This document shows, one piece after another, positions 11,811 to 20,298 of a stretch of DNA of 49,029 nt. The translations under genes were made by a program, and so were the position numbers. The first letter of the stretch is position 1. The number at the start of each line of letters is the position of its first letter. Below the pieces are notes generated by a model that had not been told where the DNA came from, did not search any database, and saw nothing but the letters and a program-made list of their open reading frames with translations. The stretch is from positions 1-49,029 of the forward strand of contig JAJDIA010000003.1 in NCBI GenBank assembly GCA_030266465.1, written 5' to 3'. The stretch is from Parabacteroides sp. OttesenSCG-928-G21 (lineage in GTDB: Bacteria > Bacteroidota > Bacteroidia > Bacteroidales > Tannerellaceae).

Positions 11811-12124
11811 CAGTCCCCTTCCTTTTATAACAATACAGAGCGTGCTTTTATGGTGATAAACAGTTGCTTTTATTGCCATGATCTGTATGTCTCTTTGTGA
11901 TGATTTAATCGTTCCACCCGGGTGGAACGGCCGACTCACCCAGGTGGAACGATCGACTCACCCGGGTGGAACGGGCGTCTCACCTAGGTGGAACGATTAA
12001 ATCTCTGTTATGAAGGTATTACTTCATGCACATGTTTGCATAAACAAAAGCAGAAAATTGCGCCTTCTTTCATCGATAAATTTTCTGTGTATTTTGGAAT
12101 CGTTTTTTTTGTAAAATTCTGAAT
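11811..12124. other. Convergent intergenic region containing palindromic array
   Basis: These 314 bases between the convergent aquaporin and FemAB genes hold the four-unit array (11902-12003) and a small perfect hairpin ATGAAG-6-CTTCAT at 12008-12025. I see no open reading frame of interest. Confidence 0.7.
11902..12003. repeat. Four tandem 22-bp palindrome-centred units inside a 17-bp inverted repeat (array A)
   Basis: Four contiguous units of exactly 22 bp occupy 11908-11929, 11930-11951, 11952-11973 and 11974-11995. Each is centred on CACC-NN-GGTG and ends GGTGGAACG. The central dinucleotide is CG, CA, CG and TA in turn. Unit 1 contains an 18-bp perfect palindrome (GTTCCACCCGGGTGGAAC). 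The whole array is bounded by a perfect 17-bp inverted repeat, GATTTAATCGTTCCACC at 11902-11918 and its complement at 11987-12003. There is no spacer between units, so it is not CRISPR-like. Confidence 0.9.
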
Positions 12125-17806: not shown

Positions 17807-18481
17807 TTACTTTTTGATCCAAACCTTAGTAACTCCACCGAATACCATTTTGTGGTAATCTTTTGCATCAGCAAAACCTTCCAGAACAAAATCTTTTCCG
17901 GCTTGTGTGTAAAAGTCGTTCGGCGTTACAGATGTTATTTCTGACAAGTCGCATTCAATAATAATTTCAGCTTCTTTATAGCTCATCTGGCCGGTAGGAG
18001 TGGCAACGGCGGTTAGTGTGGATTCCTTCATTTTTTCGGTTCCTTTACCGGTTTTACTTCCCAGGAACAATACCTGATCGGTATATTGCTGAGGAAAATA
18101 AGACATCGTGTACTTTTGTTCTTTCCGGATATACTCCAATGTATATCGGTTTGCTCTTAAAAAACACCAGGTAACCGGCTGACCAAGCATCGTTCCCGGA
18201 CCTCCCCAACCAGCAACCATAGAATTGTAGTCGGATGAATTGCCTGAAGTCAGCACCGTATTTCCACGGCCCACGTATTTGTAGATATAATCCATTATCT
18301 CTGCATCCGGAACGGCCGTAAACAAATCATTGAAGTTTTTGTCTTTCACATCTTCCGTTGTTTCCGTTTTTTGCGGAGCAGTATTGATCTCCTCATTCAC
18401 TTGCTTTTCACTACCGGAGGGCGTGTTGCAGGATATAGCCAATAGGGCTACCATTATAAAAATAAGATAGTTCTTTTTCAT
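17807..18481 (-). CDS. Flavin reductase-like lipoprotein
   Basis: This 224-residue protein starts with a lipoprotein signal (MKKNYLIFIMVALLAISC, lipobox AISC), then a Thr/Glu-rich linker. The domain that follows resembles the FMN-binding split barrel of flavin reductases: NSMVAGWGGPGTMLGQPVTWCFLRANRYTLEYI, then YTMSYFP, and VLFLGSKTGKG. The fold usually binds FMN; export with a lipid anchor is unusual for a flavin reductase but seen in Bacteroidota annotations. The frame is open upstream to 18550, but the ATG at 18481 gives the signal peptide. It is monocistronic. Function beyond the fold is inferred. Confidence 0.82.
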   Translation of the reverse strand: MKKNYLIFIMVALLAISCNTPSGSEKQVNEEINTAPQKTETTEDVKDKNFNDLFTAVPDAEIMDYIYKYVGRGNTVLTSGNSSDYNSMVAGWGGPGTMLGQPVTWCFLRANRYTLEYIRKEQKYTMSYFPQQYTDQVLFLGSKTGKGTEKMKESTLTAVATPTGQMSYKEAEIIIECDLSEITSVTPNDFYTQAGKDFVLEGFADAKDYHKMVFGGVTKVWIKK

Positions 18482-18584
18482 TTTTCTTTGTTTATGAGTT
18501 ACATATGATTGCAAAAGTAGAAATTCATTGTGTTCTTTTTCCATTTTCATCCTTATTATTTCTATTTTTTGTTAGGATGAAATC

Positions 18585-18674
18585 TGTTGCCGACAATTGT
18601 CGGCAATATTGCCGATAACTATCGGCAAGCTTGCTGATAATTATCAACAATTCTGCCGACAATTGTCGGCAACA
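18585..18674. repeat. Four tandem 22-bp palindromic units (array B)
   Basis: Contiguous 22-bp units lie at 18586-18607, 18608-18629, 18630-18651 and 18652-18673. Units 1 and 4 share the perfect palindrome TGCCGACAATTGTCGGCA. Unit 2 reads TTGCCGATA-AC-TATCGGCAA, and unit 3 is TTGCTGATAATTATCAACAA with one mismatch. C-to-T changes on one arm are matched by G-to-A on the other, so pairing is kept. The whole array is bounded by an inverted repeat of about 21 bp. The period and unit number equal those of array A, but the sequence is unrelated. Confidence 0.9.
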
Positions 18675-18750
18675 AAATAGTTGCTTATGAAACGGGGAAA
18701 TGACCGTATAGAAATAACGATTTCATGCTGAAGAAAAACAGGGTTGTTAT

Positions 18751-18799
18751 TGCACTCTCACAGTGCATCTTTATTCCTTTTTTGCACTTTTAGAGTGCA
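18751..18799. repeat. Pair of TGCACT/AGTGCA hairpins
   Basis: Two copies of the same stem occur, TGCACT-CTCAC-AGTGCA at 18751-18767 and TGCACT-TTTAG-AGTGCA at 18783-18799. Their five-base loops differ. A third half-copy (TTAAGTGCA) follows near 18,808-18,816. It may be a degenerate member of the same class of palindromic intergenic elements as array B, 77 bp away. Confidence 0.65.
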
Positions 18800-19095: not shown

Positions 19096-20298
19096 ATGAA
19101 AGCAGTATTTGTAGGATTAGGCTATGTTGGGTTGCCGACGGCTGCGCTTGTTGCAAGTCGCGGTATATCAGTAACTGGCGTGGATGTTAATCCGGAAGTA
19201 GTTGATACCATTAATAATGGTGAAATACATATTGTAGAACCTGAACTTGGCCAATTGGTGAAACGGGTAGTAGCGGAAGGAACTTTAAAAGCCTCCCTGA
19301 AGCCGGAGGAAGCGGATGCTTTCTTTATCGTAGTGCCAACTCCTTTTAAACAGAATCATCGGGCAGATATTTCCTATGTTGAATCGGCGGCTTTGTCGGT
19401 GGTACCTTTTCTTCGTGAAGGGAATCTTTTTGTGATTGAGTCTACTTCGCCGGTCATGACAACAGAACGAATAGCCGAGTTGATTTATAAAAAAAGACCG
19501 GAGCTTAAGGATAAAATTTATATAGCGTATTGTCCGGAGCGTGTATTGCCTGGAAATGCATTATATGAATTAGAGAATAATGACCGCGTAATTGGTGGAA
19601 TTAATCCGGAGTCAGCACAAAAGGCAATGGCGTTTTATAAGCAATTTGTGAACGGGGAATTGCTCCCGACTAACGCGCGTACGGCGGAGATGTGTAAGTT
19701 GACAGAAAACTCATCGCGTGACGTGCAGATTGCTTTTGCGAATGAATTATCTATGATTTGCGACCGGGCGGGGGTGAATGTATGGGACTTGATCGCATTG
19801 GCTAATCATCACCCGCGCGTAAATATTTTGAATCCCGGAAGTGGGGTGGGAGGGCATTGTATCGCTGTTGATCCCTGGTTTATCGTTTCCGAGTTTCCGG
19901 AACAGGCACAGATTATTAAGCGTGCACGGGAAACAAATGATTATAAATCAGACTGGTGTGCGAATAGTATCTTAAAGGCTTGCCGGGAGTTTGAGGAACG
20001 GACCAATCGTGAACCTATAGTTGCCTGTATGGGACTGGCCTTTAAACCGGATATTGATGACTTGCGTGAATCTCCTTCGAAATATATAACTTCGCGTATT
20101 ATCTCCGAGTCGAGAGCTGAAGTGCTGGTTGTAGAGCCGAATGTGGAAACACATAAAAGTTTTAATTTGACAGATTATAAGGAAGCTTACGAAAAGGCAG
20201 ATATTATCGCCTTTTTAGTGGCACATAAAGAATTTAAGGCTCTTGCATATAATAAAGAGAAAAAGATTTTGGATTTTTGTGGTATCTTTAAAAAATAA
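19096..20298 (+). CDS. wecC: UDP-N-acetyl-D-mannosamine dehydrogenase
   Basis: It oxidises UDP-ManNAc to UDP-ManNAcA with two NAD+. The 400-residue protein has the NAD-binding GLGYVGLPT (7-15), ESTSPV, YCPERVLPGN (145-154), the central helix region with KLTENSSRDVQIAFANEL, and the catalytic Cys255 in GSGVGGHCIAVDP. The SSRDVQIAFANE and AYCPERVLPG wording fits the WecC group better than UDP-glucose dehydrogenases. It is followed 20 bp later by wecB, and together they turn UDP-GlcNAc into UDP-ManNAcA for the capsule. It is at the distal end of the capsule locus, on the opposite strand from the main operon. Confidence 0.93.
   Translation: MKAVFVGLGYVGLPTAALVASRGISVTGVDVNPEVVDTINNGEIHIVEPELGQLVKRVVAEGTLKASLKPEEADAFFIVVPTPFKQNHRADISYVESAALSVVPFLREGNLFVIESTSPVMTTERIAELIYKKRPELKDKIYIAYCPERVLPGNALYELENNDRVIGGINPESAQKAMAFYKQFVNGELLPTNARTAEMCKLTENSSRDVQIAFANELSMICDRAGVNVWDLIALANHHPRVNILNPGSGVGGHCIAVDPWFIVSEFPEQAQIIKRARETNDYKSDWCANSILKACREFEERTNREPIVACMGLAFKPDIDDLRESPSKYITSRIISESRAEVLVVEPNVETHKSFNLTDYKEAYEKADIIAFLVAHKEFKALAYNKEKKILDFCGIFKK

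Follow-up and report, generated by a model that had tools for sequence, protein, structure and literature searches.

The window, i.e., the whole stretch of 49,029 nucleotides that was analyzed, carries a tandem array of four palindromes of 18–20 bp each at positions 18587–18672 (array B). As listed in Table 1, the array lies between a lipoprotein-like ORF and wecC; the identities of wecC and wecB were upheld by NCBIfam profiles. The two genes diverge, and array B is upstream of both: ~105 bp separate its beginning from the likely lipoprotein start (at 18481 on the minus strand) and ~421 bp its end from wecC (at 19096), in agreement with an earlier note on this DNA, which had given distances of about 105 and 420 bp.

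Table 1. Features of the window around arrays A and B
Feature	Positions	Strand	Description
Array A element	11842..12072	+	Four 22-bp units with arms; cores, at about 11905-12003, of CACCCGGGTG type; array B is ~6.7 kb away
Lipoprotein-like ORF	17807..18550	-	Neighboring gene; likely start 18481; no NCBIfam match
Left arm (X)	18516..18583	+	T-rich; conserved in family B; residual 22-bp periodicity; arm HMM E 4.9e-8; from arm alignment
Unit 1	18587..18606	+	TTGCCGACAATTGTCGGCAA; palindrome without mismatch
Unit 2	18609..18628	+	TTGCCGATAACTATCGGCAA; 7/12 swap paired, one change at 9/10 unpaired
Unit 3	18631..18650	+	TTGCTGATAATTATCAACAA; swaps at 4/15 and 7/12 paired, 3/16 unpaired
Unit 4	18653..18672	+	CTGCCGACAATTGTCGGCAA
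Right arm (Y)	18678..18745	+	A-rich; ends ATGCTGAAGAAAA; arm HMM E 9.3e-11; from arm alignment
wecC	19096..20298	+	Neighboring gene; UDP-N-acetyl-D-mannosamine dehydrogenase; NF008286, 542.8 bits

The units of array B start at 18588, 18610, 18632, and 18654, with start-to-start distances of 22, 22, and 22 bp, and a degenerate 20-mer of the array showed four matches compared to 0.04 expected from shuffles. The four palindromic units at 22 bp that the earlier note had described within 18585–18674 were thus confirmed, as was the sequence that it gave for units 1 and 4, TGCCGACAATTGTCGGCA. Units 2 and 3 read TGCCGATAACTATCGGCA and TGCTGATAATTATCAACA, respectively. The paired changes ascribed to these two units were only partly found. 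The C/G-to-T/A swap at 7/12 is paired in both, and unit 3 has an additional T-A swap at 4/15, but its C.A at 3/16 is unpaired, as is the A.C at 9/10 of unit 2. Similarly, the extent of 18585–18674 held for the core only. A dispersed non-coding element of ~220–230 bp has array B as its core, and conserved arms widen the window copy to ~18516–18745.

Alignment showed that the left and right arms of family B, ~66–70 bp each, are common to the copies and weakly inverted relative to each other, and that the element has a direction. At ~230 bp, the element has roughly the length of 3+4+3 units of 22 bp. In the window's own genome, which is in 175 contigs and 54% complete, 21 multi-unit arrays of family B and three single-unit copies were found; the arrays had four units in 15 of the 21 cases, five in 5, and three in 1. 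All arrays were intergenic, and divergent, co-directional, and convergent gaps were all used. The family is therefore a short non-coding element with defined ends in at least 21 multi-unit copies, as in MITEs, and its units are high-copy extragenic palindromes, as in REP/BIME elements.

Dispersed repeats made of palindromes are known from earlier work (REPs, PMC3733652), as are MITEs bearing a minisatellite (BrickBuilt, PMC4596501). In the parts of the source drawn on here, BrickBuilt of Porphyromonas gingivalis is a dispersed, intergenic MITE with ~19 copies, a 23-nt tandem minisatellite core, and leader/tail arms; it forms a single sequence family, reported as P. gingivalis-specific, with IS-related terminal inverted repeats (PMC4596501). 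Family B is likewise a dispersed intergenic Bacteroidales element with a tandem core and arms, whereas its period is 22 rather than 23 and its units are palindromic, a distinction drawn from the description and not from sequence identity (PMC4596501). Palindromic units, regular spacing, and multiple interchangeable families do not appear in the same parts of the BrickBuilt descriptions (PMC4596501). Upon inspection, neither the unit nor the arm consensus of family B contained a GTAG or CGTC tag. REP/BIME elements, which the 22-bp arrays resemble, are suspected of acting at the DNA level. As in enterobacteria, the palindromes are dispersed, extragenic, and present as single units and short arrays; REPs are palindromes of 20–40 bp, most of them tagged GTAG or CGTC (PMC3733652). 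Unlike REP/BIME elements, the arrays consist of direct tandem dyads exactly 22 bp apart, with an untagged consensus, many unrelated families, and regular spacing.

Covariation across family B was strong at 7/12 only. Across 88 units, this pair was Watson-Crick in 74, compared to 43.9 expected (C-G 37, T-A 37); in the four-unit arrays, 52 of 60 were Watson-Crick compared to 34.1 expected, a value reached by 0 of 5000 shuffles. In contrast, double changes were scarcer than expected at 3/16 (0 seen, 2.7 expected) and 4/15 (1 seen, 4.4 expected); at these pairs, changes were one-sided and almost never on both sides. Family B units had ~1.3 mismatches each, and the oriented strand of the 88 units had T.G (53) and C.A (61) in nearly equal numbers. 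This near equality argues for a constraint at the DNA level, since an RNA stem under selection would not produce it. Whole-array foldback formed 198 pairs compared to 221.5 +/- 6 when units were recombined between arrays, with a mean MFE of -48.5 compared to -53.9 +/- 1.2, and the reduction was clearest between units 2 and 3 (76 pairs compared to 95 +/- 4.7). Avoidance of identical adjacent direct repeats was not significant. The selection for hairpin structure proposed in the earlier note was therefore not supported in view of the strand-symmetric mismatches, the avoidance of double changes at 3/16 and 4/15, and foldback below that of recombined units. The family B palindromes are under constraint; however, the variation preserves the dyad at the center of each unit and works against long hairpins, which is the reverse of what had been inferred.

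These results bear on two readings of the palindromes as structures. If the arrays were transcribed as terminators, attenuators, or processing signals, with stems kept by paired changes, the covariation at 7/12 would be accounted for, as would the predicted fold of the window array RNA, a single long stem of very high stability (-57.7 and -64.9 kcal/mol); one 21-bp family of the related genome G075 also looks terminator-like. However, the last stem of array B leads into an A-tract rather than a T-tract, and Rfam gave no match for the array. The U-tract and strand-specific constraint of an intrinsic terminator or RNA element were thus both lacking here. Selection for RNA hairpins was rejected because of the strand symmetry and the foldback avoidance, and we regard this reading as very improbable. 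Alternatively, the tandem palindromes may extrude as cruciforms at regular intervals and serve as supercoil sinks without a sequence-specific protein. Such sinks would explain why palindromy and regular spacing matter while sequence does not, but the ~1.3 mismatches per unit, the avoidance of long foldback, and the fact that extrusion does not need a fixed 22-bp period make them improbable.

An unbiased scan covering 443 kb of the window's genome found 20 palindromic tandem arrays, all at a period of exactly 22 and belonging to at least six unrelated sequence families; shuffled sequence gave none. Without the palindrome filter, 27 sequence windows were found at lag 22, whereas each of the other lags between 13 and 40 gave 0–2. 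The arms of families A and B showed the same phasing, lag 22 being the best of 31 lags (10–40) in 4 of 4 arms. Array A represents a second family of this class with at least 16 copies in the window's genome, and the arm profiles of family A matched family F in its arms and family C in its core, indicating that the A, C, and F arms are related. Related genomes showed the same geometry: G075 had 26 arrays in 400 kb in about nine families, mostly of period 21–22, and G074 and G004 each had families of their own, mostly of period 22. The family B element belongs to a class with unrelated cores and a common geometry.

Several details of other families were also observed. Array A units often combine one consensus half with one variant half, and family C units resemble family A arm motifs. 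Families C to F, all 22-bp, occur in the window's genome at L232:15505, L240:17106, L233:7416, L241:4597, L234:15059, L232:8051, and L245:6879. In G075:C1 (L191-L210), a 21-bp family, AAAGGCCGGCAGCCTTTT, resembles tandem bidirectional terminators and sometimes directly adjoins a 22-bp AAACTACCGGTAGTTT array; arrays of GAACTCATAA with a ~10-bp period were found there as well.

In three genomes, the arrays were evenly spaced along the chromosome. In G074, 20 arrays in 400 kb were separated by gaps of 11–32 kb (mean 19.6 kb, CV 0.277), and 23 sites in G075 had a mean gap of 17.0 kb (CV 0.337). Uniform placement gave a CV of ~0.85 for these genomes, and 0 of 5000 simulations were as even. When sites were drawn from predicted intergenic gaps only, P was <0.0004 for both genomes and ~0.01 for the window's genome, whose 29 arrays had a CV of 0.37 (P 0.0002 compared to uniform placement) and no gap under 4 kb, compared to 4.0 expected. 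With families pooled, mean gaps in the three genomes were ~10–20 kb and CVs 0.28–0.37, compared to 0.63–0.91 in the null models. The pattern in the first two genomes was spotted after the fact. It held in unseen G074 contigs, for which the prediction was fixed beforehand (CV 0.47, P 0.001-0.004); the 14 gaps there (minimum 10.5 kb, mean 21.5 kb) are those among the zero-mismatch matches listed, where some arrays are missing, and the true gaps are shorter. Independent rotation of the families abolished the evenness (P<0.0002 for G075, 0.012 for G074), indicating that families avoid one another.

Convergent gene pairs flanked 5 of 20 B arrays and 4 of 15 A arrays, which speaks against operator arrays at which a cooperative repressor would regulate the neighboring genes, for array B wecC and the lipoprotein gene. 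Palindromic dimer-type sites, two-turn spacing, and the position of array B in a divergent promoter region are consistent with operators; nevertheless, the arrays occur in all gene orientations, the families interchange along the chromosome, and the regular spacing is unrelated to genes, so that we consider this role unlikely. Operators, RNA hairpins, and cruciform sinks are all less likely than regularly placed DNA sites or a mobile superfamily.

The distribution among genomes was analyzed as well. Of 393 genomes sampled from the whole order, 2 contained a two-unit B-type pattern; they belong to the same family as the window's genome, and no sampled genome outside that family had a match. By DNA similarity, the count was 17 of 125 genomes of the family. 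In a sample of about 210 kb from other families (12 genomes), no palindromic array was present. Viral contigs, plasmids, and phage collections gave no match, and a phage or plasmid origin was rejected on this basis. Four orthologous loci of genus g12 species carry arrays in matching positions. In one (L263/L267/L274), the upstream flank is no longer alignable while the array retains four units and their spacing; in another, one unit is lost in one species. Array positions in the more distant pair G074 and G075 agree roughly, often with a different family and with some sites empty; conservation of position is only modest, since 10 of 16 lie within 2.5 kb (P~0.02). Sister species lacked arrays at some loci, indicating that individual sites are not essential.

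Mu/Tn7-type transposon ends carry ~22-bp transposase sites and show target immunity, i.e., self-avoidance over kilobases; the MuA and TnsB sites, also ~22 bp, themselves confer this immunity. The arrays resemble such ends as runs of ~22-bp sites, whose binding by protein is putative here, and in kilobase self-avoidance. The arrays could therefore be a MITE-like mobile superfamily in which a putative transposase binds the 22-bp sites and target immunity causes the even spacing without any host function. Near-identical arrays with matching unit order occur at different, unlinked loci of G075, some copies having one, two, or four units; these common orders indicate that whole arrays spread, and do not by themselves indicate repair of stems, as would occur in the gene-conversion-like copying that the earlier note had raised as an alternative. 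The conserved arms and defined orientation, the empty sites in a sister species, and the low CV that random placement with an exclusion radius also yields at jamming favor mobility further. The copies exclude one another over kilobases, as target-immune transposons do, although such exclusion is predicted by a host-function model as well as by target immunity. However, neither a target-site duplication nor a clean insertion boundary was seen by eye, no transposase or other coding partner was found in a non-systematic search, and the sites differ from those of Mu/Tn7-type ends in being palindromic and occupying the middle of a non-coding element. Immunity would moreover have to act across unrelated core sequences, arrays persist with their unit spacing after species divergence, and mobile collections (phage, plasmid, viral) contained no match. 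We regard a mobile superfamily with target immunity as possible but doubtful, and nearly as likely as the DNA-site reading.

The reading that we tentatively favor from the sequence comparisons, at somewhat less than even confidence, is that array B forms the core of a multi-dyad DNA site, a putative protein target placed regularly along the chromosome. This reading is based on the exact 22-bp dyads, the usual four core units, and the 22-bp phasing into the arms; on the intergenic position without clear preference for gene orientation and the occurrence, as sampled, in only one family of the order; on the self-avoiding, near-regular spacing across sequence families; and on retention at the four orthologous g12 loci. 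DNA rather than RNA is indicated by the strand-symmetric mismatches, the foldback avoidance, the use of all gene orientations, and the lack of an Rfam match. Each array would be a multi-site target on which a putative protein, or one per family, assembles on the two-turn-spaced dyads, and the arrays may serve as regularly placed chromosomal sites such as nucleoid domain anchors or boundaries. Families would spread by copying of whole elements, and copies would then persist or give way to another family close by, since what counts is the site rather than its exact sequence. Against this, spacing was not regular in G071, where arrays are sparse (P 0.43), and showed only a trend in G004 (P 0.06); looser detection in G075 raised the CV to 0.48-0.58 and P up to 0.007, a weaker effect. 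The missing sites in sister species also count against it, and regular spacing would likewise result from a mobile element at saturation if it had target immunity. The DNA-site and mobile-superfamily readings may be stages of one history.

Noc, SlmA, MatP, and ParB sites are dispersed and sequence-specific, with a single short motif per system that is read by one chromosome-organizing protein. Those of Noc and SlmA are described as dispersed chromosomal sites (PMC4726725). The arrays are similarly scattered over the chromosome, but differ in forming four-unit arrays with many sequences per genome. Bacterial dispersed repeats are usually of one sequence and scattered without order, and our search of the open-access literature found no report of many unrelated families that have the same fixed 22-bp geometry and are evenly spaced relative to one another. 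Many sequences with one geometry at a regular mutual distance point to a common machine that reads geometry, for which a chromosome-organizing system in gut bacteria with a little-studied nucleoid, or a mobile superfamily with cross-family immunity, are candidates; both are directly testable in cultivated family members. It is possible, though far from assured, that one Bacteroidales family marks its chromosome every 10–20 kb by geometry (~4 dyads, exactly 22 bp) with many interchangeable sequences. If true, marking by geometry and not by sequence would represent a novel type of chromosome-spacing system in bacteria.

Two minor observations concern wecC. Similar inverted repeats, TGCACTCTCACAGTGCA and TGCACTTTTAGAGTGCA, lie 32 bp apart in the interval between array B and wecC (18751-18767 and 18783-18799) and are possibly an operator. 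The contigs that encode close WecC relatives (L052-L055) carry the labels Spirochaetia, Treponema, or Lutibacter; they may come from Bacteroidales and sit in mislabeled or contaminated bins, or the genes may have been gained horizontally.
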